Source: Chroogloeocystis siderophila 5.2 s.c.1
GTDB lineage: Bacteria > Cyanobacteriota > Cyanobacteriia > Cyanobacteriales > Chroococcidiopsidaceae
Assembly (NCBI RefSeq): GCF_001904655.1
Contig: NZ_MRCC01000003.1
Coordinates: 248,001 to 312,000 of the forward strand
Reading direction: 5' to 3'
Length of the DNA stretch: 64,000 bases
In this document: piece by piece, positions 3,168 to 33,785 of the stretch
Position numbering within the stretch: the stretch's first letter is position 1
Layout of the letters: each line of letters begins with the position of its first letter
Notes under the pieces: generated by a model
Databases searched by the model: none
The model's input: only the letters and a program-made list of their open reading frames with translations
Told to the model about the DNA's origin: nothing
Made by a program: the position numbers and the translations under genes

Positions 3168-3458
3168 TCAGGGCGATCGCATCGAGTCGAGGCTGTGCAG
3201 TCCTTTGATAATAGCGACGACATTGATACAGGAAATTGCTATGCAAATGAGAAACAAGCTTTGATAACCGAGATGTTCTGCAATGATGCCTCCAATCGCT
3301 CCTGCTAGGATCGTGCTGAAATAGACTACTGAAGTCTGAAAAGTATAATCCGTTCCGGCGGTTTCGACTCTGCTTTTATCCATCATGACAGTTGATAGGA
3401 CGGATTGAACCGTAATAAACCACGCCATGCTGATTCTCAGCATCCATATCCAACGCAT
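3168..3458 (-). pseudogene. C-terminal fragment of an MFS transporter (siderophore-exporter type)
   Basis: The 96 codons correspond only to the last quarter of a major facilitator protein: the loop MDKSRVETAGTDYTFQTS, characteristic of MFS proteins near siderophore loci, followed by two transmembrane helices and a short tail. Functional members have about 400 residues and 12 helices. The preceding 90 bp (3459-3551) contain no matching upstream sequence in any frame, so about 300 codons have been deleted. I call it a pseudogene. Its position between the IrtB-like transporter and the AraC regulator suggests the siderophore export gene of this locus has been lost. Confidence 0.65.
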
Positions 3459-3551
3459 AAACTTCCTCGCACCAAGTCCACCTTGCTTATTAAGACTGAG
3501 TTTCAGTAAGCATGGGTGAATTGTACAGGGAAAGCGAGTTGAACTTGATCG

Positions 3552-4613
3552 CTAGCCGGAGGTTTTATGATCGCCAGACGGAGATTTTTGACCAACGATC
3601 CAGTACTGCTTTTGATAAGCTGCTAAATAATCCTTAGGATTTACCCCAAACTTACGCCTAAACGCAGCAGCAAACGAGCCTCGATGGGCAAACCCAACCG
3701 CATGAGCAACTCCTGCTATTGTCATGTGATTCTCTTGCAACAGTTGTGCAGCTTGTTCCATGCGATAGTTGTGGAGATAACCAAAAACCGTTGTGCCAAA
3801 AACTTGACGAAAGCCTTGCTTGAGTTTGCAATCATTGATTCCAACCTGGCGCGCTAGCGAGAGTAGCGATGGAGGATTATCTAATTGGTGAATCAAAAGA
3901 TCTTTCGCTTGATGAATTCGTTTCACATCGTCCGGTTTAAGTTGATGTGTTTTTTGTAATTCTGAGCGATCGACTTTGAGTTGTTTCCAATAAAGTGCAA
4001 TGAGTTCTAGTCCCTTACTCTCCAGATACAATCTGCGAGTTTTACCCTGATAAGGGCAGTGTAAAATTTGCCCAAGCGCGATCGCCATCAAAGAGGTCGT
4101 TTTACTAAACTGCCAGTAAGGAATCGGTACATTGGCGTCGAGTATTCTTCTTAACTCAGGGGGAAAGTCTGCTTCATCAATTGTGTCTCTAAAGATGCTA
4201 GGGGCGATCGCTAACTCAACAGTGCGAATTTGTTTACCAGTCGGAAGCTCTATACTGCCTGCATTACCAGGACAGTACGATAAGGCATATTCTCCTGCTA
4301 ATGAACATAAATGAGTACTTGAGCCTCGCATCGAACCAGACACGAAACCAGACACGCAAAATTTGAGAGCAATCCATGAATTTGCCAGGTCGGTATCTAA
4401 ACACTTTAAGCTGAGACTTCTATGCAGTTGACAATCTTGCAGAAAAAGTTCTAGTCCATCCCTTAGTTGTATGCTGCGTACATTCCCTTGTCCCAAAGTT
4501 TTGGGAAGCGTTAAATATGTTTCACAATCATAGAAGTGGCGATCGGCTCCAGTTTGTTGCCGAAACTCATCTAAGGCACTTTGAAAGTCTGTAAAAGTGA
4601 GTGAAACATCCAT
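3552..4613 (-). CDS. AraC-family transcriptional regulator, PchR-like
   Basis: The C-terminal hundred residues form a double helix-turn-helix AraC/HTH_18 domain (LARQVGINDCKLKQGFRQVFG, then HAVGFAHRGSFAAAFRRKFG). The N-terminal part resembles PchR-type regulators that sense a ferri-siderophore and switch on its uptake genes. I prefer the ATG at 4613 (353 residues); the open frame extends to 4712, but the first 33 codons overlap murQ and look non-coding. A perfect 14-bp tandem duplication (4607-4620, 4621-4634) covers the start codon, so upstream copies of the ATG exist in another phase. It is placed to regulate the downstream siderophore genes on the same strand. Confidence 0.85.
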   Translation of the reverse strand: MDVSLTFTDFQSALDEFRQQTGADRHFYDCETYLTLPKTLGQGNVRSIQLRDGLELFLQDCQLHRSLSLKCLDTDLANSWIALKFCVSGFVSGSMRGSSTHLCSLAGEYALSYCPGNAGSIELPTGKQIRTVELAIAPSIFRDTIDEADFPPELRRILDANVPIPYWQFSKTTSLMAIALGQILHCPYQGKTRRLYLESKGLELIALYWKQLKVDRSELQKTHQLKPDDVKRIHQAKDLLIHQLDNPPSLLSLARQVGINDCKLKQGFRQVFGTTVFGYLHNYRMEQAAQLLQENHMTIAGVAHAVGFAHRGSFAAAFRRKFGVNPKDYLAAYQKQYWIVGQKSPSGDHKTSG

Positions 4614-20972: not shown

Positions 20973-21014
20973 ATATTAATGCCATACTGGTAGGTGTTTT
21001 GTATCTAAGAATAC
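20973..21014 (-). promoter_or_regulatory. NtcA-activated promoter of the urt operon
   Basis: An exact NtcA consensus GTA-N8-TAC occupies 21001-21014. On the minus strand it is followed by 22 bases and then TAATAT (20973-20978), which fits the TAN3T -10 element of class II NtcA promoters with the preferred spacing. Transcription would start near 20966, leaving a leader of about 48 nt before urtA. The site is palindromic, but the plus strand has no matching -10. Confidence 0.82.
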
Positions 21015-21144
21015 TAAACTTATTCGCTACACTAATTAAGCCTTACAGTGCAGTTGCGCGCTGAATTTAAATATTTGTAATGAAATTGCCTCGATATCGA
21101 AGTTGCATAATAGAAATCAAAAGGACACCTGTGAGGATATAGTT

Positions 21145-21531
21145 ATGTCGGAAGCAGCAAAATCTTCACCAATCGTTAGTGCTGTAGCGACACTCCTAGA
21201 AAATTATGCAGCAGGAAAACGGAACTTCAATAACGCTAACTTGGGGGATGCGCAACTTCAAGGTGAAAATTTAAAAGGAGTTGACTTTAGCTATGCTGAT
21301 TTGAGTCAAGCAAAGTTGAGCAACGCAAATCTGAGAGGTGCTGATCTAAGTTATGCCGATTTGAGCCAAGCTGATTTAACGGGTACTGATTTACGAGGCA
21401 GTTTACTCTTAGGAGCAAATCTACGTCAAGCTGAACTCAAAAATGCCAAGTTAGAAGGTGCAGATTACGATCGCAATACGCATTTTCCGGAAAATTTTGA
21501 CCCTATGAGTGTGGGGATGAAGCAGAGATAA
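21145..21531 (+). CDS. Pentapeptide-repeat protein
   Basis: A 128-residue cytosolic protein made mostly of about twelve A(D/N)LXX pentapeptides (for example ADLSQAKLSNANLRGADLS), which coil into a right-handed quadrilateral beta-helix. The N-terminal 35 residues and the C-terminal YDRNTHFPENFDP segment are non-repeat caps. The function of such proteins is usually unknown. The ATG at 21145 is chosen because GAGG lies upstream and the longer frame from 21103 is not protein-like. It diverges from urtA and shares the intergenic NtcA region, but no NtcA-type -10 faces it. Confidence 0.85.
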   Translation: MSEAAKSSPIVSAVATLLENYAAGKRNFNNANLGDAQLQGENLKGVDFSYADLSQAKLSNANLRGADLSYADLSQADLTGTDLRGSLLLGANLRQAELKNAKLEGADYDRNTHFPENFDPMSVGMKQR

Positions 21532-21559: not shown

Positions 21560-22237
21560 TTACGAATAGTTGCCAAATGCTTGCATAACATTAGCAGCGG
21601 TTGCTGTCCAGCCAACGATTCCACCTTGGGCGCGAATCATTTCTAAGGTAGATTCTTTAAACTCTGGGAAATAGCTTGCTGTTGCATCTTCAACAAGTAA
21701 GCATTCAAAGCCGCGATCGTTGGCTTCGCGCATTGTTGTTTGGACGCAGACTTCGGTAGTCACTCCAGTGATCATCAGGTGTGTAATTCCTTGTTTGTGT
21801 AGATAGGATTCGAGAGAAGTTTGGTAAAAAGCGCCTTTACCTGGTTTAGAAATCACGATTTCGCCTGGAATTGGCTGTAATTCAGAAATAATCGCATTTC
21901 CTGATTCACCTAAAATGAGTATGCGTCCCATTGGTCCTGGATCGCCAATTTTTAACTGACCGTTTCCGCGACGCAACTTTGACGGCGGACAGTCGGATAA
22001 ATCCGGTTGATGTCCTTCAACTGTGTGAAATACGGGTAATTGACGTCTGCGGAAGATTTCGAGTAAGCTCTTAATAATGGGGATAGTTGCGCTTAAGTGA
22101 CTCACATCATTACCTAATGCTTCCCCAAATCCACCAGGTTCTAAAAAGTCACGCTGCATATCGATAATTAACAGTGCTACTTTCTGCAAATCTGAGGGAA
22201 GTTCGTAATCGTAGGGTTGTGCAGCAATTAAGACCAT
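21560..22237 (-). CDS. Isochorismatase-like cysteine hydrolase (amidohydrolase), paralogue of the BiuH-like enzyme
   Basis: A 225-residue cysteine hydrolase. The catalytic triad is visible as Asp26 (LLIIDMQRDF), Lys131 (SKPGKGAF) and Cys164 (GVTTEVCVQTT), numbered from the ATG at 22237. The same DPGPMGRIL and KPGKG landmarks occur in the biuret-hydrolase-like protein at 24273-24986, so the two are diverged paralogues. Such enzymes hydrolyse amide or ureido bonds of small N-rich molecules. The ATG overlaps the end of the cupin gene by 10 bp, so it is cotranslated with it and is the last gene of the nitrogen-scavenging group. Substrate unknown; a ureido acid or carbamate is plausible. Confidence 0.83.
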   Translation of the reverse strand: MVLIAAQPYDYELPSDLQKVALLIIDMQRDFLEPGGFGEALGNDVSHLSATIPIIKSLLEIFRRRQLPVFHTVEGHQPDLSDCPPSKLRRGNGQLKIGDPGPMGRILILGESGNAIISELQPIPGEIVISKPGKGAFYQTSLESYLHKQGITHLMITGVTTEVCVQTTMREANDRGFECLLVEDATASYFPEFKESTLEMIRAQGGIVGWTATAANVMQAFGNYS

Positions 22238-22575
22238 AGCACTACAGGTTTTTCCCAAATTGCTAAGACAATACAGCCAGTTTCACTTGTAACAGTGTGA
22301 CTCGTACCAGGAGGATTAATCACCAAAGTTCCGGTTTGGTGTTTGCCATTGCGATCGCTTTGCGAACCAGACAACACAAAAATATGTTCAAACCCAACGT
22401 GTTCGTGTTTCGGTACAACTGCACCAGGTTGATACCGTAATAGCGCCGCTGTTGCCCCCTGTTCGCCGTCTTGGTAAAAGCGATAAATATCCACTCCAGG
22501 GCGAAAAGGTTCCCAAGGTAAATCGTCATGCCAAGCAGCAATATTGAGTAAGTTCTTAAGTGTTAAAATTTTCAT
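22228..22575 (-). CDS. Single-domain cupin protein
   Basis: A 115-residue protein with a conserved beta-barrel cupin: PGAVVPKHEHVGFEHIFVLSG supplies the first metal motif (His-X-His with the later Glu/His), and INPPGTSHTVTSETG the second. The metal set HEH...E...H is intact, so it may be an enzyme or a small-molecule sensor. Cupins of this ChrR-like size often accompany catabolic operons. It overlaps the downstream cysteine hydrolase by 10 bp, which ties its role to that enzyme. Its actual activity is unknown. Confidence 0.82.
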   Translation of the reverse strand: MKILTLKNLLNIAAWHDDLPWEPFRPGVDIYRFYQDGEQGATAALLRYQPGAVVPKHEHVGFEHIFVLSGSQSDRNGKHQTGTLVINPPGTSHTVTSETGCIVLAIWEKPVVLWS

Positions 22576-22687
22576 AATTGTTTGTAATTAAGTGAACTAG
22601 TAAAAATAAAGGATGGTAACTGGAAAAATACTGATGAAGAGTTTCCGATTACCGATTACCTACTACCAACTTCAACAAGTGTGGTAT

Positions 22688-24253
22688 TTAATCATGTCCC
22701 GCCATACGTTGACCAATGGCAGTAATATCAGCGTTGGTGATCGCACTTTCATAAACAAGTTTGCCGTCGCTCATCACAACAATGCGATCGGCGAGTGTGA
22801 GAAGTTCGTCTAAATCTTCGCTGACTAATAGTACCGCAACTCCGCGATTGCGGGCGGCGACGATTTGGGTGTGAATATATTCAACAGCAGCAAAATCTAA
22901 ACCGAAACAAGGATTGGCGGCGATGAGTAAATTGATACACGAACTTGATAATTCGCGGGCTAATACAGTACGCTGGACGTTACCACCAGAAAGATTGCCT
23001 ACAGGTGTATCGACTGAAGGGGTTTTGATCGAAAAGCTACTGACCAACCCTTTAGCTGCTTCGCGCATTGCTTTGAGAACGAGTAACCAACCGAATGACG
23101 CTTGTGGGGGACGATCGAATGTGCGTAATGCTAGATTTTCTGCCACACTCATGTGCGGGACGCACGCATTGCGTAAAGGTTCTTCGGGAAGTGCAAAGAC
23201 GCGATGACGAAACATCTGTGCGCGAGTAGCAGTGTATGTTTCGCCGTTAACTAATATTTGCCCTACTGTCGCCGGACGTTGACCTGCTAAAACTTCGACT
23301 AATTCGCGTTGACCGTTACCAGAAACCCCCGCAATTCCAACAATTTCGCCACTGCTAACAGTTAAATTAATACCATTGATAGCGGCTAAACCATTGTCTT
23401 TATTGGCGTGAATGTTTTTGAGTTCTAAAACTGGAGTTGTTGCAATTGATGTTATTTTATCAAGCTGCTGCGTTTCGCGACGTTCTCCTAGCATCATTGT
23501 TGCTAAGTCAGCTAGTGATAAATCTTTAACCAAGCCATGACCTGCTTTCTTTCCTTTGCGCAGTACCGTCACTTCATCGACAAATGCCATCACTTCGCGG
23601 AATTTGTGACTAATCATCAATACGCTTAAGTTTCCCGCTTGCACTTCATTGCGGAGTAAACCCAAGACTTCATCAGCTTCCTGGGGAGTTAACACCGATG
23701 TTGGTTCATCTAAAATCAGAATGCGACTTTGTAAATAGAGTTGTTTGAGAATTTCTAGCTTTTGCTTTTGTCCCGCAGCCAATTGCATCACCGGAGTATC
23801 AAGATCAACTTGAAACGGTGCGCTTTGCATAAATGCTTTGAGTTGTGCATACTCGTTTTTCCAGTTAATTACGTTGCGATCGCTGTATCGCGACAACACT
23901 AAATTTTCCGCAACAGTCATGGCGGGGACAGAAGTAAAGTGCTGGTATACCATACCAATGCCATATTTATGCGCATCGCGAGGACTGGAAATATTACGCG
24001 ATCGCTTATCTACTAACACATCGCCTTTATCAGGAGTGTAAAAACCCATGATGCACTTGACTAGCGTACTTTTCCCCGCGCCATTTTCGCCTAAAAGTGC
24101 GTGAAACGTTCCAGGTTTGAGGTGTAGTGAAACATTATCTAGCGCTGTCATTGCGCCAAATCCTTTGGTCATGTTCACCACTTCTAAATCGGGTGGTAAA
24201 TTAGTTTTTTTACTAATAGATTGTTGTGCGATCGCATCGGTCAATCGTGACAT
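22688..24253 (-). CDS. ABC transporter ATPase with two nucleotide-binding domains (BMP/nucleoside-type importer)
   Basis: A 521-residue protein with tandem ATPase domains. Domain 1 has GENGAGKST, a weak signature (MQLAAGQKQK) and LILDEPTSVLTPQE. Domain 2 has the degenerate GVSGNGQRE Walker A, NLSGGNVQR and an ANPCFGLDFAA Walker B in which the usual acidic residues are altered, as in RbsA/YufO-type proteins where only one site hydrolyses ATP. It is the energy module for the two permeases and the BMP protein encoded upstream in the same operon, although the amidase genes are inserted between them. Confidence 0.9.
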   Translation of the reverse strand: MSRLTDAIAQQSISKKTNLPPDLEVVNMTKGFGAMTALDNVSLHLKPGTFHALLGENGAGKSTLVKCIMGFYTPDKGDVLVDKRSRNISSPRDAHKYGIGMVYQHFTSVPAMTVAENLVLSRYSDRNVINWKNEYAQLKAFMQSAPFQVDLDTPVMQLAAGQKQKLEILKQLYLQSRILILDEPTSVLTPQEADEVLGLLRNEVQAGNLSVLMISHKFREVMAFVDEVTVLRKGKKAGHGLVKDLSLADLATMMLGERRETQQLDKITSIATTPVLELKNIHANKDNGLAAINGINLTVSSGEIVGIAGVSGNGQRELVEVLAGQRPATVGQILVNGETYTATRAQMFRHRVFALPEEPLRNACVPHMSVAENLALRTFDRPPQASFGWLLVLKAMREAAKGLVSSFSIKTPSVDTPVGNLSGGNVQRTVLARELSSSCINLLIAANPCFGLDFAAVEYIHTQIVAARNRGVAVLLVSEDLDELLTLADRIVVMSDGKLVYESAITNADITAIGQRMAGHD

Positions 24254-24272
24254 TGGTTTTCCTCAGTTTTAA

Positions 24273-24986
24273 TTAAACACTGACTTGTGATCCTTGAACT
24301 CTCATCAGTGTGATCGCCTGAATAAATGCTTGCGAATCAGCAACCGCACCAAATACACCACCTTGCATTTTGATCATTTTCAACGCCGCTAAGTAGTTAC
24401 CATAATCGGTTGCGCCTGTGCAGTCGGAGAGTAGTAAACATTCATAACCGCGATCATTCGCATCGCGCATTGTCGTATGAACGCAGACATCGGTTGTAAT
24501 TCCGGTGAGGATGATATTTTGAATGGCTTTGCGTTGTAAAATTAGATCTAAATCAGTTGCGTAGAATGACCCTTTTCCTGGCTTATCGATAATCACTTCT
24601 CCTGGAAGCGGTGCAAGTTCGGGAATAATTTCCCAGCCTGGTTCGCCACGAACGAGAATTTTGCCACAAGGTCCAGGATCGCCAATTCCCGCACCAATTT
24701 GTTGTGATCGCCAGCGTTTATTTTCTGGTAAATCAGATAAATCTGGTCGATGTCCCTCGCGGGTATGAATGACATGAAAACCTTTTGCCCGTGCAATTTC
24801 TAGAACTTTCCGAATTGGTTCAATCGGTGCGCGAGTCAACGATAAATCGTATCCCATGCGATCAACATAGCCGCCAATTCCGCAAAAATCCGTCTGCATA
24901 TCAATAATTAGCAGTGCTGTATTTTCAGGACGCAAATCGCCATTAAAAGGATAGGGATACGGATCAGCTTCAACAAAATGTCCCAT
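24273..24986 (-). CDS. Biuret amidohydrolase-like cysteine hydrolase (BiuH family)
   Basis: A 237-residue isochorismatase-fold hydrolase. It closely follows the sequence I recall for Rhizobium leguminosarum biuret hydrolase Biu[54 protein letters not shown] and [19 protein letters not shown] are shared landmarks. The triad Asp29, Lys135 and Cys168 has the same 106 and 139 spacing as in BiuH. That enzyme converts biuret to allophanate and ammonia. The operon also encodes a formamidase and an allophanate-hydrolase C-terminal domain protein, which supports a ureido/amide substrate. Biuret itself remains a prediction. Confidence 0.82.
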
Positions 24987-25023
24987 AGTGACTTTGGATT
25001 ATTATAAAGAAAATGCTTGCTGT

Positions 25024-26058
25024 CTAACTCTTTCCTGCTTTCCCTCGCCCCTCGCTCCTCACTCCTCGCTCCTCATAAGTTCGTGTCGGAGGTGGAAAAC
25101 CGCAAGCAGTTCCATCTTTGTGAATCACCGCGTCTTCCCAAGGGAGGCGATAGCAGCCGTTAACTAAATCTTGCATATAGGTATAAGGACAATCTTGCGC
25201 GCCGCCTTTAACGGCAACATAACCGCGATGTCCAAATTGATAAATATTATTTTCTACACCCCAGTGAATACGGGCTTCGCGGACGAGATCGGGGCGTACC
25301 TCGGCAGTGATAATTTCATCAGGGCGATCACTTCCCATCACTAACGGCGTACCGTCAAAATTGACGATCATACCTTCGCCCATCGAGTCAAACGTGCTAT
25401 CGCTACCGCACATACACACCGATGCAGTATACATCAAATTACAAAACGCATTTGCTTGGTTCGTGATTTGCCAACTATGCCGAATTGGTGCAGTGTAACC
25501 CGCCGTCCGAATCATAATTTCTGCACCTTTGTAGGCACATTCGCGTGCCATTTCGGGAAACATTCCGTCATGACAGATGATGAGTGCGATCGTGCTACCG
25601 TTAGGACCTTCGCAGACCGGAATTCCTAAATTACCTGGTTCCCACGGTTCGACAGGTATCCACGGATGCAATTTGCGGTAGTAAAGCTTTAATTCTCCGG
25701 TATCATCAATAATAATGCCGCTATTGTAGGGATTTCCGTGCGGATTGTATTCCATGATCGAGAAACAGCCCCAAATGCGGTGATCTTGACAAGCTTTTTG
25801 AAATGCAGCAACTTCTGGTCCATCCAAGCGGCACATAATTTCCGGATTCGTATCCATCGATAAGCCGTGAAGTGAATATTCCGGAAATACGGCTAAATCC
25901 ATCGCAGGTAAATTGCGGCGGGCTTTGGCGACCATCTGACAAATGCGATCGCACTGTACAGTTAAATCATCGGCAGTCACAACGTTAGGAAGTTGTAGCT
26001 GCACAAGACCGATAACGACTCCGTTAGGTGATTTGTTGAGTCCACCAAGTCCACTCAT
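25024..26058 (-). CDS. amiF: Formamidase (AmiF-like, nitrilase superfamily)
   Basis: A 344-residue nitrilase-fold amidase matching the AmiF group over its whole length: FPEYSLHGL, FSIMEYNPHGNPYNSGIII, YYRKLHPWIPVEPWEPG, ICHDGMFPEMARECAYKG and NNIYQFGHRGYVAVKGG. The catalytic residues are Glu60, Lys129 and Cys162. AmiF hydrolyses formamide to formate and ammonia. The ATG overlaps the stop of the upstream allophanate-domain gene by 4 bp (ATGA), so the two are translationally coupled. The last 15 residues (ERGVRSEGRGKAGKS) come from a GAGGAGCGAGGAGTGAGG-type low-complexity repeat and are probably a recent tail. Confidence 0.88.
   Translation of the reverse strand: MSGLGGLNKSPNGVVIGLVQLQLPNVVTADDLTVQCDRICQMVAKARRNLPAMDLAVFPEYSLHGLSMDTNPEIMCRLDGPEVAAFQKACQDHRIWGCFSIMEYNPHGNPYNSGIIIDDTGELKLYYRKLHPWIPVEPWEPGNLGIPVCEGPNGSTIALIICHDGMFPEMARECAYKGAEIMIRTAGYTAPIRHSWQITNQANAFCNLMYTASVCMCGSDSTFDSMGEGMIVNFDGTPLVMGSDRPDEIITAEVRPDLVREARIHWGVENNIYQFGHRGYVAVKGGAQDCPYTYMQDLVNGCYRLPWEDAVIHKDGTACGFPPPTRTYEERGVRSEGRGKAGKS
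25028..25078. repeat. GAGCGAGGAGTGAGGAGCGAGG low-complexity repeat at the amiF 3' end
   Basis: Tandem variants of CTCGCTCCTCACTCCTCG form a purine/pyrimidine-skewed tract that is read through by amiF. A related tract (CCCTCACTCCTCGCCCCTC) lies at about 26516-26540, at the end of the second permease gene. Confidence 0.6.
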
Positions 26059-26447
26059 GAAAGATCTCCTTTATTAGCGATATAATTGCGCCAACCACCC
26101 CAAGAGGTAATTTCACGCTGGTTTTCACATAAGATTGGTTCGCCTAAAACGCCGAGAACTTCGCTACTATCTTCGAGGACGACTTTACCGATGCAAAGTC
26201 CTGGGGGTTCTTGAAGTAAGACTTGTACGAGTCCGTTGGGGGGAATTTGCCAAATTTCAAGGGCGATCGCATTTCCACCACTGGCGACGCGCAGCATCGC
26301 GGGATGTTTGTCGTTGATTGACCAGAGGCGATACACTGGTGCGGTTTTGGCTTTGCGTACAAAGGTCGCGTTGACGGCGAGGAGATTCGGGTTGAGTTCT
26401 AATCCGCGCATTAATGTACCGTTGACGGCGAAGAGGAGGTGTTGCAT
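26055..26447 (-). CDS. Free-standing allophanate-hydrolase C-terminal domain protein
   Basis: A 130-residue protein that I recognise as the C-terminal domain of allophanate hydrolase (AtzF type): LFAVNGTLMRG at the start, FVRKAKTAPVYRLWSI, GGNAIALEIWQIP, GKVVLEDSSEVLG and ITSWGGWRNYIA at the end. In AtzF this domain follows the amidase domain and completes allophanate breakdown to ammonia and CO2. Here it stands alone and is coupled by an ATGA overlap to a formamidase, not to an amidase-signature protein. It may assist the nitrilase-type amidase or act on the product of the BiuH-like enzyme. The family is sound; the role is open. Confidence 0.75.
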   Translation of the reverse strand: MQHLLFAVNGTLMRGLELNPNLLAVNATFVRKAKTAPVYRLWSINDKHPAMLRVASGGNAIALEIWQIPPNGLVQVLLQEPPGLCIGKVVLEDSSEVLGVLGEPILCENQREITSWGGWRNYIANKGDLS

Positions 26448-26534
26448 TTTTTATGAGAAAACGAACCACTTCAGACGCAGAGGACGCAGAGGAGAAATAT
26501 ATATGATGTTCTCTCATCCCTCACTCCTCGCCCC

Positions 26535-27455
26535 TCATTGCCCTAATGCCCCTGGTGCGCCATTGAGTGTGCGTTTGGGCGAACAGGTGAGGATCATGAT
26601 GAGGAGGGTGAGAATGTAGGGGGAGGCATTGAAGAGGTAGTAGTAGGAATCGATACCAACGGATTGTAGCGCGGGACCGATCGCTTGCGCACCACCGAAG
26701 AGGAGCGAGGCGTATAAGCATTGCATCGGTTGCCAACGGGCAAAGATGACGAGGGCGACTGCCATTAAACCTTGACCGCCAGAAATACGTTCGTTCCAGC
26801 TACCAGGGTAGTAGAGGGATAAATAAGCACCGCCGATGCCTGCAAGGAAGCTACCAGCGATGATGCATAGCATTCGGACTTTGAAAATTGAGATTCCCAT
26901 TGCTTTGGCGGCGTCGGGGCTATCACCAACCGCGCGGATGTAGAGTCCCCAGCGTGTGGCGCGAAAGAACCATTGCATTAAGGGTGCGATCGCAATTCCA
27001 ATTAAAAACAACGGACTAATCTGCAATGCTGATTGCACTTGTGGTAAACTACTCCATGCCCCAAATTGCAGTGCGGGGAGTGGTGGAGCGGAAGGTTGAA
27101 TAAAGGGTTTACCTAAGAAAAAGGCAATCCCGCTCCCGAAGATAATCATCGCGATTCCTACTGCGACATCGTTGACTCTGGGTTGTTGCGATAGCCACCC
27201 GTGAATCACACCTAATATCATGCCGGCGACTCCTGCCATAATAACACCTAGCCACGGCGAAGTTGTAAGGTATGCAATCGCATACGCACTCATTGCACCT
27301 GTCAGTAGGGTTCCTTCAAGTCCTAAGTTGATTTTGCCGCTTTTTTCGGTGAGACACTCGCCCAAACTGACAAATAGAAACGGGGCGCTACCGCGTAGTG
27401 TTCCGGCGGCGATCGCTAGGGGAACTCCCCACCAGCCTAATGCTTCGGTTGCCAT
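26535..27455 (-). CDS. ABC transporter permease (BMP/nucleoside-type), second permease
   Basis: A 306-residue permease of the BPD_transp_2 family with about nine hydrophobic segments. The family motifs ECLTEKSGKINLGLEGTLL near residue 33 and AVGDSPDAAKAMGISIFKVR (ATPase contact loop) are clear, as is GPALQSVGIDSYYYLFNASPYILTLL at the end. YufQ/NupQ-type proteins share these. It pairs with the 27474-28529 permease. The final residues (GAPGALGQ) run into repeat-type sequence. The next gene downstream starts 88 bp later. Confidence 0.9.
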   Translation of the reverse strand: MATEALGWWGVPLAIAAGTLRGSAPFLFVSLGECLTEKSGKINLGLEGTLLTGAMSAYAIAYLTTSPWLGVIMAGVAGMILGVIHGWLSQQPRVNDVAVGIAMIIFGSGIAFFLGKPFIQPSAPPLPALQFGAWSSLPQVQSALQISPLFLIGIAIAPLMQWFFRATRWGLYIRAVGDSPDAAKAMGISIFKVRMLCIIAGSFLAGIGGAYLSLYYPGSWNERISGGQGLMAVALVIFARWQPMQCLYASLLFGGAQAIGPALQSVGIDSYYYLFNASPYILTLLIMILTCSPKRTLNGAPGALGQ

Positions 27456-27473
27456 CTCATCTCTCCTACAACG

Positions 27474-28529
27474 CTACGTAGTAACCGCTGACCCGTCCTT
27501 AAAAAACCTACCGTAGAGCGATTCGCTAAAGAGAACCACTAAGAATACTAAACCTTGAAAAACAAGAACTGTGGCATCAGGGAGGTTGTGCGATCGCTGT
27601 AAACTTCCACCACTTGCTAAAATTCCACCGAGTAAAATCGCGACTAAAGTTGCGGCTAATGGGTTATGTCGGGCAATAAATGCGACTAAAATACCGCTAT
27701 AGCCGTAATTTGCATTCAAAGATTCATTCGCGCGTCCATGCACTGCAGCAACTTCAACCATACCGGCTAATCCGGCACAAGAACCGGCTAAAAAGCAAAT
27801 CATTATTGTCAGTTTACCCACAGGAAGTCCTGCAATTCTCGCAGCGCGGATATTTCCACCCGCAACACGCGCCGCAAAGCCGAACGTTGTGCGTTGAATC
27901 AGGAAATAAGCGATAACACAAGCAACAAGTCCGTAAATCAAACCATAGTGAACGCGAGTTCCAGGGATATCGCCCAACATATTGATTTCTGCTATTGGGT
28001 AACTCGAAGGCTTGTTGAGCGAACTTGGATCGCGCATGGGTCCACCGACAAGGTGATTGAGGAGCGCGATCGCAATATAATTCAGTAGCAAGCTACTAAT
28101 CGTTTCATTTACGCCACGATAGTGTCGCAACGCACCAACAGCCCCAATCCACAATCCACCACACACAATTGAGGCGATCGCCATTGCAATTTGTACTATC
28201 GTAGGTGGCGCGGTTGATAAGGATAATCCTGCGGCGACAGCCCCCAATCCACCGACAATGATCGCGCCTTCGTTACCAATAATCACCAAACCCAAACGTG
28301 CAGGAAGCGCGGTACACAACGAACTCAGCATCAATGGTGCAGCGCGTAGTAACGTATTCTGAAACGCCCGCCAACTACCAAATGCAGATCGATAAATTGA
28401 AGCATAAACACCAAAAGGATCAGCACCAGCAAACGCACAAAAAATACCAAACAATAGCAACGAAAACAGCAACGCTGCTAACGGTATACAAATTGCTTCG
28501 AGGGTACGCGAGTTGTAACGGTTGATCAT
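27474..28529 (-). CDS. ABC transporter permease (BMP/nucleoside-type), first permease
   Basis: A 351-residue permease of the YufP/NupP type. It has the large N-terminal region with FGSWRAFQNTLLRAAPLMLSSLCTALPARLGL, the INIGNEGAII-like element VIIGNEGAIIVGGLGA, NETISSLLLNYIAIALLNHL and AGGNIRAARIAGLPVGKL. The ATG at 28529 is preferred to 28562 because the first 11 codons of the longer frame are encoded by TTGGTAA heptamer repeat. Only 18 bp separate it from the second permease, so the two are cotranscribed and form the channel of the importer. Confidence 0.9.
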   Translation of the reverse strand: MINRYNSRTLEAICIPLAALLFSLLLFGIFCAFAGADPFGVYASIYRSAFGSWRAFQNTLLRAAPLMLSSLCTALPARLGLVIIGNEGAIIVGGLGAVAAGLSLSTAPPTIVQIAMAIASIVCGGLWIGAVGALRHYRGVNETISSLLLNYIAIALLNHLVGGPMRDPSSLNKPSSYPIAEINMLGDIPGTRVHYGLIYGLVACVIAYFLIQRTTFGFAARVAGGNIRAARIAGLPVGKLTIMICFLAGSCAGLAGMVEVAAVHGRANESLNANYGYSGILVAFIARHNPLAATLVAILLGGILASGGSLQRSHNLPDATVLVFQGLVFLVVLFSESLYGRFFKDGSAVTT

Positions 28530-28624
28530 AATTTTGGTAATTGGTAATTGAGAACGATACATAAGTAATGCTTAGAATACGGTGAGCAGTTGGTAATTCT
28601 GTCCCATTACCTATTCCCTATTCC

Positions 28625-29818
28625 CTAACTACTCACATTCCCTACAACGCCCGAAACTAACCAATTCATCTTTTCCAATTCTTGATCTTGCTGCTGAAAA
28701 TCTTTACCGGCCGGAATCACAACTTTTCCGGTGTTATCTTTCAGTTCGCCTCGGTAAACAATCATGCTACCATCCATAAACTTTGCTTTAGCCGCATCCG
28801 CAGTTTGCCTAGCATCTGCACTCACCGCAGTACCATAAGGCGATAACTTCAAAAAGCCATCTTTCAAACCACCACGCACTAAATGGGGAATTCCGCCATT
28901 CATCAATGTTTGACCTGCGCGAATCATTTCGACATAATTCGTATAAACTTGCGTCCAATCCCACTCTGCACCTGTGAGATATCCTTTAGGAGCAAGCGCA
29001 GCTTGATTAGCATGGTAGCCACTACAGAAAATACCGCGTTTTTCAGCAGTTTCCATCACTACTTTAGGACTATCTACATGACAGGTAATAACGTCAATAC
29101 TTTGATCTGCCATACTGTTGGCTGCTTCAGCTTCTTTAACTGGTAATGCCCAGTCGCCTGTAAAAATCACTTGTGTTGTAATTTCAGGTTTAACACTACG
29201 CGCGCCCAACGTGAAGCTATTGATGTTACGCAATACCTGTGGAATCGGTTTAGCAGCAATAAAGCCTAATTTACCTGTTTTAGACGTTTGACCAGCAACA
29301 ACGCCAGCTACATACTGTGCTTCATCGATGTAACCGAAGTAACTACCAACGTTTTGCGGATGTACGCCTTCTTGGTAAAGTCCACCGCAGTGAAAAAACT
29401 GAACTTCAGGATATTCTTGGGCAATTTTGAGGATATGCGGATCGTAATAGCCAAAAGAAGTAGGAAACAAGATAGTCGCGCCATCTTCTTCAATCATATT
29501 CCGCATCGTTTCTTCGACTGCGGTTGTTTCAGGAACGTTCGCTTCTTCAACAATTCTGACACCTGGGAGTTTAGCAATTCCTGCTGCGCCTTCTGCATGA
29601 GCTTGATTGTAACCGTAGTCATCTTTAGGACCAACGTAAATAAAACCAATCACAAGCGGATTATCTCCACCACCCGCAGTAGTCGCTTGCGTTTCTTGAG
29701 TGGAAGCACATCCACCTAACTTGGCGGTTACTCCAAATGCAGTCGTTGCTAAAAGCCCACGAACAACTTGACGACGAGATAAATAGATTCTTTTACTCAC
29801 TCTAACTCTCCTTAACAC
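28625..29818 (-). CDS. BMP-family (basic membrane protein) ABC substrate-binding lipoprotein
   Basis: A 397-residue BMP/Med-type binding protein. The N-terminus has an arginine-rich part (SRRQVVRGLL), a hydrophobic segment and a lipobox LGGC (Cys at about residue 37), so it should be a periplasmic lipoprotein. The core begins PLVIGFIYVGPKDDYGYNQAHAEG and contains ILFPTSFGYYDPHILKIAQEYP and KLGFIAAKPIPQVLRNINSF. Characterised BMP proteins bind purine nucleosides or similar heterocycles, but this subgroup, encoded with amidases, may bind another N-rich ligand. First gene of the nine-gene operon. Confidence 0.88.
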   Translation of the reverse strand: MLRRVRVSKRIYLSRRQVVRGLLATTAFGVTAKLGGCASTQETQATTAGGGDNPLVIGFIYVGPKDDYGYNQAHAEGAAGIAKLPGVRIVEEANVPETTAVEETMRNMIEEDGATILFPTSFGYYDPHILKIAQEYPEVQFFHCGGLYQEGVHPQNVGSYFGYIDEAQYVAGVVAGQTSKTGKLGFIAAKPIPQVLRNINSFTLGARSVKPEITTQVIFTGDWALPVKEAEAANSMADQSIDVITCHVDSPKVVMETAEKRGIFCSGYHANQAALAPKGYLTGAEWDWTQVYTNYVEMIRAGQTLMNGGIPHLVRGGLKDGFLKLSPYGTAVSADARQTADAAKAKFMDGSMIVYRGELKDNTGKVVIPAGKDFQQQDQELEKMNWLVSGVVGNVSS

Positions 29819-30206: not shown

Positions 30207-33200
30207 ATGAATAGTGAAGAAGCACTAGCAATTGTCCAAACTTTAGCTGAAGAACCTTTAAGTAAGCTGCAAGCTTCTGTATTTTGTTATGCATGGGAAG
30301 AACAGCCGTACCAAGAAATTGCCAAACAACTTGGTTATGAAGTTGGTTATCTCAAGCAAACCGGTTCGCAGTTATGGCAAGTTCTCAGTCGCGCTTTTGG
30401 GGAAAAAGTTTCTAAAAGTAACGTGCAGTTAGTTCTTAAGCGCAAAGCCAGAGAGTTGACTGATGAATGCGTAGGCAATTCCGTTCAAAGTCTTAAGTAC
30501 GACGATTGGGGTAACGCTCCTGATGTATCAGTTTTTTATGGTAGAAGTGCAGAATTAGCAACACTCGAACAATGGATTATTCGCGATCGCTGTCGTTGGG
30601 TTGGCTTGTATGGAATGGGTGGAATTGGTAAAACCTGTCTCGCAGTCAAGTTAGCGCGCGAAATTCAAAGTAATTTCGAGTACATCATTTGGCGCAGTTT
30701 GCGGAATGCACCACCGATTTTAGACTTATTGGCAGATTTAATCCAATTTCTGTCACAGCAACGCGAAACGGATTTACCAAATACGCTTGATGGTTGCATT
30801 TTACAGTTATTGCAATACTTACGCGCGCATCGCTGTTTATTGATTCTCGATAATGGCGAGACAATCCTACGATCGCCTTCTACTGACGAAGGGTACACTC
30901 AGTTATTCAAATCTATTGCCCAAACTCATCATCAAAGTACACTAGTCCTCACAAGTCGCGAAAAGCCTAACTCAATTGCGCTGGAAGAAGGAGAAAATTT
31001 ACCCGTGCGATCGCTACGACTTTCAGGTTTAAATGAAAGTGCGATCAAAAAAATCTTTGAAACCAAAGGATCTTTCACCGCGTCCCATCCCGAATGGAAA
31101 CTATTAGTTCATCATTATGCAGGTAATCCTTTAGCTTTAAAAATTGTTGCTGCGGGTATTCAGAACTTTTTTGATTGTAGTATCAGTAACTTTTTAGAAG
31201 TTCTACCGCAAGCTGCTATCGTTTTTGGTGACATCCGAGATTTACTAGCAAGTCAAATTCATTACCTACCAGAATTAGAATTACAGATTTTGTACTGGTT
31301 AGCAATTAATCGAGAGCCTGTCACTTTATCTGAACTCAAAACAGATATTATTCCACAGATAACTTTAGGTGAATTATTAGATGCGATCGCGGCTTTAGAA
31401 AGAAAATGCCTAATTGATAAAATTGCACCTACGCCAATTGAAAACAGTAGGTTTACATTGCAACCTGTCGTTATGGAGTATATCGGTGATCGTTTCATCC
31501 ATCAAATTTGTGAAGAAATTACGCATAAAAATCTACACCTTTTTAATTCGCACACGCTGATTAAAGCAACTGCTAAAGATTATATTCGGGAAACACAAAA
31601 GTGCCTGATACTTCAACCGATTATAGACAAATTAATTAATAATAGTAGTAAAGCAAAATTAGAAACAAAATTTCAACAAATTCTCTGCGAGTTGCGCGAG
31701 ACTCAACAAGTAACTGGGTATGCAGGTGGAAATATACTCAATATACTTTGCTATTTACAAACCGATCTGAGCGGTTGGGATTTTTCGCAAATTAGTATTT
31801 GGCAAGCATACTTGTGTTGCAGCAATTTACAACAAGTTAATTTCACCTCAGCAAACTTTGCTAAATCTGTTTTTACTGATACTTTTAGTCAAGTTTTATC
31901 GGTTGCTTTTAGTCCTGATGGTAAGTTACTTGCAACAGGCGATGTCAACCATGAAATTCATGTCTGGCAAGTCACTGACGGAAAACAAGTACTTACTTGT
32001 AAAGTCGATGCAGGTTGGTTGTGGTGTGTTGCTTTTAGTCCTAATGGTCGCCACTTAGCAAGTAGCGCCAACTGTACCGTAAATTTGTGGGATGTCCAGA
32101 CAGGAGAATGCATTAAATCATTTCCAGGGTACACTGACCGTGTATTTTCTGTGGCGTTTAGTCCTGATGGTCGAATGCTAGCAAGTGGTAGTGAAGATCG
32201 CTTAGTACGAGTTTGGGATATTAAAACGGGTGAATTGTTGCATACTTTTGCTGGACATACGGATGAAGTGCGTTCAGTTGCTTTTGCACCGCAACACTAT
32301 GCACATAGCCGTCACGGAGGATTGCTAGCAAGTGGTAGTTTTGACGGTACTGTGCGCGTTTGGAATATAGATACAGGCGAGTGTTTGAAACTTGCGGAAC
32401 ATCAACAAAAAGTGTGGTCTATAGCGTTTAGTCCTGATGGCAGTATCATTGCGAGTGGCAGTAGCGATCGCACAATCAAACTTTGGGATATTCGCACAGG
32501 GACAAGTATTAAAACTATGACTGCACACTCGCAGCAAATTCGCACCGTTGCGTTTAGCAGTGATGGGCGAACGCTAGCAAGCGGTAGTGACGATCAATCG
32601 GTCAGGATCTGGAATTATCATACAGGTGAGGTTTTACGAGTTCTTAAAGGACATACGAGTTGGATATCGACAGTTGCATTTAGTCCCAATAACTACTTAT
32701 TGGCTAGTAGCAGTGAAGATCGATCCGTGCGTTTGTGGGATAGCCGCAATAACTTTTGTCTGAAGACTTTGCAAGGGCATAGTAATGGTGTTTGGTGCGT
32801 TGCTTTTAGTCCCGATGGTACGCAGCTTGCGAGTGGTTCTCAGGATCGCTTGATCCGCTTGTGGGATACAACAACAGGTAAGCATTTGGGTAGCTTACAA
32901 GGACATACTAGCTGGATTTGGTCGGTAGCTTTCCATCCTGAGGGCAATATCTTAGCAAGTGGTAGCGAAGACCGCACAATTAGATTATGGGATACTCAGA
33001 CACGACAACATTTAACAACGCTCAAAGGGCACGCTGATGCAGTGTTTGCTGTGATATTTAGCCCTGATGGTAAAACACTGTTTAGCGGTAGTCTCGACGG
33101 AACAATTAGACTTTGGAACATACAACAACAAACGTGTCATCCTTGGCAAGGACATCGCGGCGGTGTTTGGTCAATTGCTTTAAGCGTAGATGGAACGCTA

Positions 33201-33785
33201 CTAGCAAGTGGTAGTCAAGATCAAACGATTAAACTTTGGGATGTTCAAACAGGTTGCTGCATTAAGACGCTATCCGGACATACGAGTTGGATTCGTGCAT
33301 GTGCTATCAGTCGCGATCGCCTATATCTTGTCAGCGGTAGTGCTGACGGCGTGATTAAAGTTTGGCAAATTGAAACAGGGCAATGCATCCAAACGCTACA
33401 GGCGCATCAGGGTCCAGTATTATCAATTGTTTTTGATCCTAGTGGCAAGAACTTTGCAACGTGTGGCACTGATGCAGTGATAAAACTTTGGCAATGGCAG
33501 CCGACTTGTACAATTTCAAAGACTCTACACGGACATAGTAAATGGGTCAGGTTCCTAGCTTACAACTCCGAGGGACTTCTTGCAAGTTGTAGTCAAGACG
33601 AAACAATCAAACTTTGGAATTTTAACGGTAATCGCCATCTCACTCACAAAACACTACAAGTTCCTAGACCTTACGAGGGCATGAATATTACTGATGCTCA
33701 AGGCTTGACAGCAGCAACTACGACTACACTGAAAATATTGGGTGCTATTGATTCCAATAATATAGCGGCTAGTAACTTCTGTTAG
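30207..33785 (+). CDS. STAND NTPase (NB-ARC type) with N-terminal HTH and 14 WD40 repeats
   Basis: A 1192-residue signalling protein. Residues 1-90 form a helical region with a sigma-70-like helix-turn-helix look (YQEIAKQLGYEVGYLKQTGSQLW). Next is an NB-ARC-type ATPase with Walker A GMGGIGKT at 136-143, a Walker B CLLILDN near 212-218 and a winged helix (about 340-430). A short pentapeptide-like linker (LQTDLSGWDFSQ) leads to about 14 WD40 repeats (about residues 560-1150), enough for two seven-bladed propellers. Repeat 4 carries an HYAHSRHGG insertion. STAND proteins oligomerise on ligand sensing; the propellers would be the sensor. No effector enzyme domain is evident, so output may be through the N-terminal domain. 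Confidence 0.88.
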   Translation: MNSEEALAIVQTLAEEPLSKLQASVFCYAWEEQPYQEIAKQLGYEVGYLKQTGSQLWQVLSRAFGEKVSKSNVQLVLKRKARELTDECVGNSVQSLKYDDWGNAPDVSVFYGRSAELATLEQWIIRDRCRWVGLYGMGGIGKTCLAVKLAREIQSNFEYIIWRSLRNAPPILDLLADLIQFLSQQRETDLPNTLDGCILQLLQYLRAHRCLLILDNGETILRSPSTDEGYTQLFKSIAQTHHQSTLVLTSREKPNSIALEEGENLPVRSLRLSGLNESAIKKIFETKGSFTASHPEWKLLVHHYAGNPLALKIVAAGIQNFFDCSISNFLEVLPQAAIVFGDIRDLLASQIHYLPELELQILYWLAINREPVTLSELKTDIIPQITLGELLDAIAALERKCLIDKIAPTPIENSRFTLQPVVMEYIGDRFIHQICEEITHKNLHLFNSHTLIKATAKDYIRETQKCLILQPIIDKLINNSSKAKLETKFQQILCELRETQQVTGYAGGNILNILCYLQTDLSGWDFSQISIWQAYLCCSNLQQVNFTSANFAKSVFTDTFSQVLSVAFSPDGKLLATGDVNHEIHVWQVTDGKQVLTCKVDAGWLWCVAFSPNGRHLASSANCTVNLWDVQTGECIKSFPGYTDRVFSVAFSPDGRMLASGSEDRLVRVWDIKTGELLHTFAGHTDEVRSVAFAPQHYAHSRHGGLLASGSFDGTVRVWNIDTGECLKLAEHQQKVWSIAFSPDGSIIASGSSDRTIKLWDIRTGTSIKTMTAHSQQIRTVAFSSDGRTLASGSDDQSVRIWNYHTGEVLRVLKGHTSWISTVAFSPNNYLLASSSEDRSVRLWDSRNNFCLKTLQGHSNGVWCVAFSPDGTQLASGSQDRLIRLWDTTTGKHLGSLQGHTSWIWSVAFHPEGNILASGSEDRTIRLWDTQTRQHLTTLKGHADAVFAVIFSPDGKTLFSGSLDGTIRLWNIQQQTCHPWQGHRGGVWSIALSVDGTLLASGSQDQTIKLWDVQTGCCIKTLSGHTSWIRACAISRDRLYLVSGSADGVIKVWQIETGQCIQTLQAHQGPVLSIVFDPSGKNFATCGTDAVIKLWQWQPTCTISKTLHGHSKWVRFLAYNSEGLLASCSQDETIKLWNFNGNRHLTHKTLQVPRPYEGMNITDAQGLTAATTTTLKILGAIDSNNIAASNFC

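Follow-up and report, generated by a model that had tools for sequence, protein, structure and literature searches.

A cyanobacterial operon of the triuret and biuret type with a solo AH_C protein as candidate substitute for allophanate hydrolase

The operon and its described relatives

Both triuret and biuret occur as impurities in fertiliser, and purine oxidation also yields triuret (PMC7948467). Herbaspirillum and Rhizobium degrade triuret by a known pathway that proceeds through TrtA (triuret hydrolase), BiuH (biuret hydrolase) and AtzF (allophanate hydrolase) and also includes TrtB (PMC7948467), and in ammonia-oxidisers trtA, trtB, biuH and atzF lie in clusters with bmpA-nupABC (PMC12625717). 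Here we describe a related operon in a 64,000-nucleotide stretch from the cyanobacterium Chroogloeocystis siderophila 5.2 s.c.1 (contig NZ_MRCC01000003.1, positions 248,001 to 312,000; hereafter the window). It is a conserved operon of the known triuret/biuret kind whose last step differs: AtzF was not found in the cyanobacterial genomes searched that carry the operon or some of its genes, and what co-occurs instead is a solo AH_C protein from a distinct AH_C group, which is the new observation of this study. We propose, with a probability of roughly 0.6, that the operon scavenges triuret and biuret by means of an importer, TrtA, a cupin, BiuH and the solo AH_C protein in place of AtzF, and that urease completes the process.

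Nine consecutive open reading frames (ORFs) on the minus strand, at window positions 21560-29818, encode in gene order a BMP substrate-binding protein, two permeases, the AH_C protein, a formamidase-like amidase (AmiF), a cysteine hydrolase (BiuH), an ATPase with two nucleotide-binding domains, a cupin and a second cysteine hydrolase (TrtA). The intergenic gaps are 62, 18, 87, -4, 37, 19, 112 and -31 nt, and all nine products match Pfam above gathering score (Bmp, BPD_transp_2 twice, AH_C, CN_hydrolase, Isochorismatase, ABC_tran in two stretches, Cupin_7 and Isochorismatase), which confirms the initial annotation of nine same-strand genes with overlaps or short gaps. By Pfam, the BMP-type ATP-binding cassette (ABC) importer is complete, comprising a PnrA-like binding protein, two BPD_transp_2 permeases and the double ATPase.

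Gene 6 scores 421.3 bits on the BiuH equivalog model NF050097 (cut-off 370), and its closest PDB entry is Rhizobium BiuH (6azo, 423 bits). Alignment to 6azo and A2 shows that it holds the Asp-Lys-Cys triad, the second Lys and the Gln, as well as the BiuH-type residues Tyr, Tyr, Ser, Asp and Thr at the discriminating positions. Gene 9 reaches 248 bits on the same model; its closest entry is Herbaspirillum TrtA (6xix, 284 bits), with BiuH entries at 193 bits or less. The residues that separate TrtA from BiuH are named in PMC7948467, and all seven TrtA residues compared are present in gene 9 (F35, N41, A134, E160, Y187, Q202 and I205 in the numbering of the published enzyme). Judged by these scores and residues, gene 6 is a biuret hydrolase and gene 9 a triuret hydrolase, and neither is a generic cysteine hydrolase. 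The earlier BiuH-like label of one of the two thus lies above the equivalog cut-off, while the second proves to be of the TrtA type. Sequence comparison likewise establishes the other gene identities to family level, the conservation of the operon, the lack of AtzF above cut-off and the presence of urease described below.

BMP importers often transport nucleosides, and RutB is a member of the same hydrolase family as the two operon hydrolases, which would suit an operon for pyrimidine or nucleoside breakdown. Such a function is highly improbable, as the hydrolases score only 127 and 91 bits on the RutB model (cut-off 378), compared with the BiuH score of 421, and Pfam reveals no further pyrimidine gene among the nine.

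In a profile search across 386 cyanobacterial genomes, TrtA was found in 15 (390-416 bits), of which 13 have a BiuH-like second match of 239-255 bits. For a comparison of loci, one genome per species was scanned and the best 80 of 578 confirmed stretches were taken, 30 of them cyanobacterial and 50 from other organisms, including Nitrospira, Verrucomicrobiota, Rokubacteria, SAR324 and Proteobacteria; this set retains loci cut by contig ends, which depresses its counts. The recurring layout is BMP, permease, permease, (AH_C), (AmiF), BiuH, ATPase, (cupin), TrtA, with the members in brackets variable and the order changing locally. BMP homologues occur in 13/30 cyanobacterial and 38/50 other TrtA loci, many of them truncated by contig ends. 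The search for conserved synteny of BMP and amidases, which the initial annotation had proposed as a check, uncovered a co-occurrence of importer, BiuH and TrtA in many genomes, and the refuting outcome named there, a lack of such conserved co-occurrence, was not observed. Its general idea of import and nitrogen stripping from a ureido or amide compound was right in kind and holds in view of this conserved operon with BiuH and TrtA, narrowed to the known substrate class of triuret and biuret. Its suggestion that no such cyanobacterial pathway had been described claimed too much novelty, since the pathway type is already published for Herbaspirillum, Rhizobium and ammonia-oxidisers; a literature search returned, among the matches listed, no paper treating triuret in cyanobacteria.

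Compared with the Herbaspirillum/Rhizobium pathway (PMC7948467), TrtA and BiuH are alike by score and residues and the same chemistry is expected, but the window genome has no detected AtzF and has a solo AH_C protein and AmiF in addition. The ammonia-oxidiser clusters (PMC12625717) share importer type and hydrolases with the window operon, which differs in being cyanobacterial and in that solo AH_C appears to replace AtzF. While atzF is reported in comammox bacteria (PMC12625717), the two Nitrospira genomes in our set (G394, G395), possibly of other lineages, have solo AH_C only. Rhizobial plasmids bear the same operon, some with AtzD or atzF. The rhizobial BMP-permeases-BiuH-ATPase-TrtA-cupin operons (L108-L113) keep the importer and hydrolase order, some with a formamidase in the same slot, and differ from the window in that TrtA precedes the cupin, a GntR or LysR regulator lies alongside and some include AtzD or atzF.

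In the proposed pathway, the BMP-type ABC importer would take up triuret and/or biuret. TrtA would split triuret into ammonia and carboxybiuret, from which the cupin would probably strip CO2 to give biuret, and BiuH would convert biuret into ammonia and allophanate. The solo AH_C protein, replacing AtzF, would then decarboxylate allophanate to urea, and the cell's urease would complete its breakdown. The AmiF-like enzyme may extend the range of substrates by a further small amide that is imported.

The solo AH_C protein and the fate of allophanate

The AH_C gene of the window stands alone, with no amidase-signature domain fused or adjacent to it. A tree of AH_C sequences, from which matches shorter than 95 residues or containing stops were omitted, resolves three groups: AtzF C-domains, fused or split (30 rows, support 93), AHC1, which includes the window protein (28 rows, support 42), and AHC2 (16 rows, support 99). 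Matches without a fetched locus (e.g. G070, G255, G116, G203, G016 and G370) were assigned to groups from their scores instead of the tree. Position 12 is His in 30/30 AtzF C-domains (AHC0), Leu in 28/28 AHC1 and Ala in 16/16 AHC2 sequences. The GAH-motif His of the AtzF C-domain is catalytic, and the window protein has Leu in its place. Among solved structures, the window protein is closest to 5c5z, a chain of 137 residues (144 bits); the allophanate hydrolases 4gyr and 4iss score 47 and 34 bits. The gene had been read as an AtzF C-domain as such, which has to be revised: it belongs to another group, in which the invariant His is lacking.

Solo AH_C of the AHC1 group is present in 13/15 TrtA-bearing cyanobacterial genomes (broken in G215) versus 1/371 others (G233; Fisher p 3e-21). 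As the AHC1 gene is unlinked to TrtA in G011, G346, G193 and G170, where it lies far away or on another contig, this is co-occurrence and not only clustering. Across 35 TrtA-bearing genomes, classified by open-frame length, 10 have fused AtzF and 22 solo AH_C only, one (G408) combines solo AH_C with a separate amidase part and two hold fragments only; fused AtzF and solo AH_C occur together in none of the 35. Similarly, in the 80-locus set the AtzF amidase part is found in 0/16 loci with AH_C versus 22/64 other loci (p 0.004). AH_C thus alternates with AtzF and therefore most likely acts on allophanate, and it may speed the conversion of allophanate to urea, for urease.

With the TIGR02713 cut-off of 511 bits as criterion, AtzF was detected in 0/9 cyanobacterial operon genomes (the operon being decayed in G215), whereas 5/5 added positive genomes matched. 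A second set comprised 24 of 25 additional genomes that have the operon or some of its genes; L116 and L140 were left out of the genome-level AtzF, AH_C and urease counts. Here AtzF was present in 11/24 and absent above cut-off in 13/24, namely all 8 cyanobacteria, both Nitrospira, the Verrucomicrobiota genome, one Rokubacteria genome and Rhizobium lemnae (G386), in which AH_C appears only as fragments at contig ends. Altogether, AtzF at the profile cut-off is missing from all 17 cyanobacterial genomes in which the whole operon or some of it is present, and in the window genome (G000) the best amidase-signature score is 220 bits, against the 511 needed. Rhizobium as a whole is not AtzF-less, because other R. 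leguminosarum plasmids carry annotated atzF. Urease was found in 14/14 genomes of the first urease search and 23/24 of the second, the sole urease-less genome having AtzF; all 22 AtzF-less genomes searched have urease.

A split AtzF, with an amidase ORF adjoining AH_C, exists in other cyanobacteria. As an explanation for the solo AH_C proteins it was examined by genome searches and does not fit G296 (100% complete), G395 and G400, in which the operon and solo AH_C are accompanied by just one amidase-signature protein, with a GatA-like score, and AmiF is absent, so that a partner amidase for AH_C is unlikely there. The metagenome assembly G394 has zero amidase-signature matches.

Relatives of the AH_C protein also occur in Escherichia coli. 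The structure 5c5z, which we take to be E. coli protein c4763, shares the NGTLMRG motif with the window AH_C. The study of c4763 reportedly only suggested a function from structure, and we know of no established reaction for the solved protein. An AHC1-type gene is present in 1543/5426 complete E. coli genomes (28%). Its neighbours differ from those in the window: in strain NC101 (L248:3426-10639), genes for a TrtA-type hydrolase, AllH, AllF, AllG, carbamate kinase, solo AH_C and a cytosine-type permease form one operon. According to PMC7558591, the c4763 work showed a role in urea breakdown, and AllFGH is an oxamic transcarbamylase (PMC11326118). The E. coli operon could possibly represent a triuret route that yields carbamoyl phosphate. 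The same gene combination is seen in L245 and L246. By eye, a Photobacterium plasmid has a similar operon; in a ColV plasmid copy the TrtA-type hydrolase is interrupted.

Several observations weigh against the proposed last step. The AHC1 branch is itself weakly supported, though it is split from the well-supported AtzF C-domains and AHC2. Among TrtA cyanobacteria there are exceptions, G177 having no AH_C and G060 a split AtzF instead. The window genome holds six amidase-signature proteins, among which an AH_C partner is possible, and G391 has 24 such matches, with a low-scoring amidase-like fragment (26 bits, under the cut-off) immediately after AH_C. The 24-genome AtzF set was selected, mostly for a locus without AtzF, and the exclusion of AtzF is confounded with descent, because AtzF-less and AtzF-bearing genomes follow phyla. 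Urease is common and a weak discriminator. Moreover, urease is mostly lacking in E. coli strains that have a close solo AH_C, and NC101 has no BiuH beside AH_C, so that an ending by way of urea and urease is not general. Finally, the step may need no enzyme, since allophanate breaks down spontaneously to urea and CO2 in physiological conditions (PMC6219798).

Against this background we advance only tentatively, at somewhat less than even odds, the broader proposal that AHC1 proteins are new allophanate decarboxylases. They would yield urea and replace AtzF in the breakdown of triuret and biuret in cyanobacteria, Nitrospira, Verrucomicrobiota and Rokubacteria, and in 28% of complete E. coli genomes would serve a second route, one that gains ATP and ammonia from triuret by way of a TrtA-type hydrolase, an AllFGH-type carbamoyltransferase and carbamate kinase. 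If true, the solved protein 5c5z would thereby gain an enzymatic role. In R. leguminosarum, no atzF was reported near atzD and biuH and the fate of allophanate was left open (PMC5806882); it was also called unknown, with several genes there that could degrade allophanate or urea (PMC6219798). For such cases, in which no atzF adjoins BiuH, the co-occurrence described here names one small family as candidate and reduces the question to a one-enzyme assay.

The second solo group, AHC2, comprises G000:C24:23853-24212 (L084) and nine similar loci. Near these ten loci, genes resembling allantoate amidohydrolase (6), a GntR regulator (6) and hydantoin/allantoin racemase (4) were named by eye. AHC2 is also enriched in TrtA genomes (13/15 vs about 12/371 in a rough score-based count). 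On a plasmid of the gut Clostridia species Pusillibacter faecalis (L247, 8001-9225), a solo AH_C gene is followed by a carbon-nitrogen hydrolase gene, and in Nitrospira UBA2083 (L238) a 132-residue solo AH_C follows TrtA.

The cupin and the AmiF-like amidase

The cupin residues H57, H59, E63 and H93 are kept in 43/43 distinct sequences. In the 50 non-cyanobacterial loci, the cupin is found in 14, AtzH in 18 and both in none (p 7e-4), and in the whole set the two coincide in 0/80 loci. AtzH belongs to a route that deaminates carboxybiuret and TrtB to one that decarboxylates it (PMC7948467, PMC6219798). This alternation suggests that the cupin is probably TrtB, decarboxylating carboxybiuret.

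Alternatively, the solo AH_C protein might itself decarboxylate carboxybiuret directly after TrtA, while allophanate merely decays to urea. E. coli NC101, with a TrtA-type hydrolase and AH_C in one operon and no BiuH or cupin in the stretch, would be consistent with this role, as would three Nitrospira loci in which AH_C is present and the cupin absent. We consider it unlikely, however, because AH_C and cupin occur together in the window and in 6/30 cyanobacterial loci, and because AtzH, of the other carboxybiuret route, alternates with the cupin rather than with AH_C, whose own counterpart in this respect is AtzF. AtzH, which acts in the AtzE route (PMC6219798), resembles the AH_C protein as we interpret it in its small size and in its proposed reaction, the decarboxylation of an N-carboxy ureide, but has an unrelated fold (NTF2) and another substrate.

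The operon AmiF scores 580 bits on NF009803 (cut-off 406) and has the Glu-Lys-Cys motifs E60, K129 and C162. In a tree, the operon AmiF clade (26 rows, of which L081 is not in an operon) and the canonical formamidases, represented by only four rows, fall on separate sides with supports of 93 and 95. The canonical four have urt as a neighbour in three Synechococcus-like genomes (so labelled by eye), and on a Klebsiella plasmid the neighbour is a similar ABC importer. Many positions are uniform in 25/25 operon AmiF sequences, a comparison that omits partial matches below 300 residues, yet different from the canonical four: Arg193 replaces Asn, for example, and Asp224-Ser225 replace two tyrosines. 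The simple formamidase of the initial annotation is not supported by this separation. AmiF occurs in 6/15 TrtA cyanobacteria, and the only other genomes above cut-off are the three with canonical formamidases. In the 80-locus set it is found with and without AtzF, cupin or AtzH, and therefore looks like an added entry point, not a pathway step. The idea that AmiF replaces AtzF, which came from rhizobial operons with one or the other, was demoted, as both occur together in the larger set.

AmiF and AH_C could also be imagined as a split, non-homologous allophanate hydrolase, in which AmiF deaminates allophanate and AH_C decarboxylates the product, so that urease would not be needed. The two genes overlap by 4 nt, every one of the 4 cyanobacterial loci (of 30) with AmiF also has AH_C, Arg193 and Asp224-Ser225 could suit a charged substrate, and the stretches of the rhizobial plasmid loci L110 and L111 contain AmiF but not atzF. 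Even so, we regard this division of labour as quite improbable. AmiF is limited to the minority of TrtA cyanobacteria given above and absent from 14/17 genomes examined, including G296, G395 and G400; the AtzF amidase part is also present in 8/12 AmiF-bearing non-cyanobacterial loci; R. leguminosarum need not rely on AmiF, given the annotated atzF on other plasmids of the species; and the operon AH_C lacks the AtzF His.

Coordinates, mobility and neighbouring genes

The features of the operon are listed in Table 1. In the TrtA gene, the eighth codon (about 22237) is the probable start, near the start of most relatives. No Rfam family above gathering score and, in a tRNA scan, no tRNA was found in the window.

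Table 1. Genes of the operon, with window coordinates and best supporting matches.
Feature	Position	Strand	Evidence
BMP/PnrA-like substrate-binding protein, first gene	28625..29818	-	PF02608 133 bits
Importer permease A	27474..28562	-	PF02653 98 bits; between BMP and permease B in other loci too
Importer permease B	26535..27455	-	PF02653 129 bits; after permease A in other loci too
Solo AH_C protein (group AHC1)	26055..26447	-	PF21986 134.5 bits
Formamidase-like nitrilase-superfamily amidase (AmiF, operon clade)	25024..26058	-	NF009803 580 bits
Biuret hydrolase BiuH	24273..24986	-	NF050097 421 bits; 6azo 423 bits
Importer ATPase, two nucleotide-binding domains	22688..24253	-	PF00005, two stretches
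ChrR-type cupin, candidate carboxybiuret decarboxylase (TrtB role)	22228..22575	-	PF12973 83 bits
Triuret hydrolase TrtA	21560..22258	-	Best PDB match 6xix 284 bits; TrtA-type residues

A complete atzF-BMP-permeases-AmiF-BiuH-ATPase-TrtA-GntR operon is carried by the Klebsiella aerogenes plasmid p035_A-VIM-1 (L244), which is typed as mobilizable, and is flanked there by IS1-type transposase genes. The operon of G215 (L080) is decaying: BiuH and AH_C are each matched as two pieces, and the importer binding protein and permeases were not detected. In L238, a carbamate kinase-like ORF (3294-4481, by eye) lies directly upstream of the operon.

The urt genes adjoin the operon in the window, a proximity that the initial annotation took as meaningful. 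In no other cyanobacterial operon locus examined, several of them cut by contig ends, did a urt gene reach the reporting threshold. A perfect NtcA-type site (GTAN8TAC) at 21001-21014 is located 83 nt upstream of urtA, between urtA and a pentapeptide-repeat-like gene (21103-21531); the whole window contains 13 such sites versus 10 expected, no clear excess. None is present in the 300 nt before BMP of the window. In the corresponding 300 nt of 19 cyanobacterial loci, the window included, 7 have a perfect site, compared with 9.5% in shuffles (binomial p 0.001). The adjacency of operon and urt, real in the window but not conserved, looks incidental. Divergent from the operon, a large protein of the NB-ARC and WD40-repeat type is encoded at 30207-33785, and a similar gene family, both assigned by eye, is found near the operon in L116, L117, L118 and L123.

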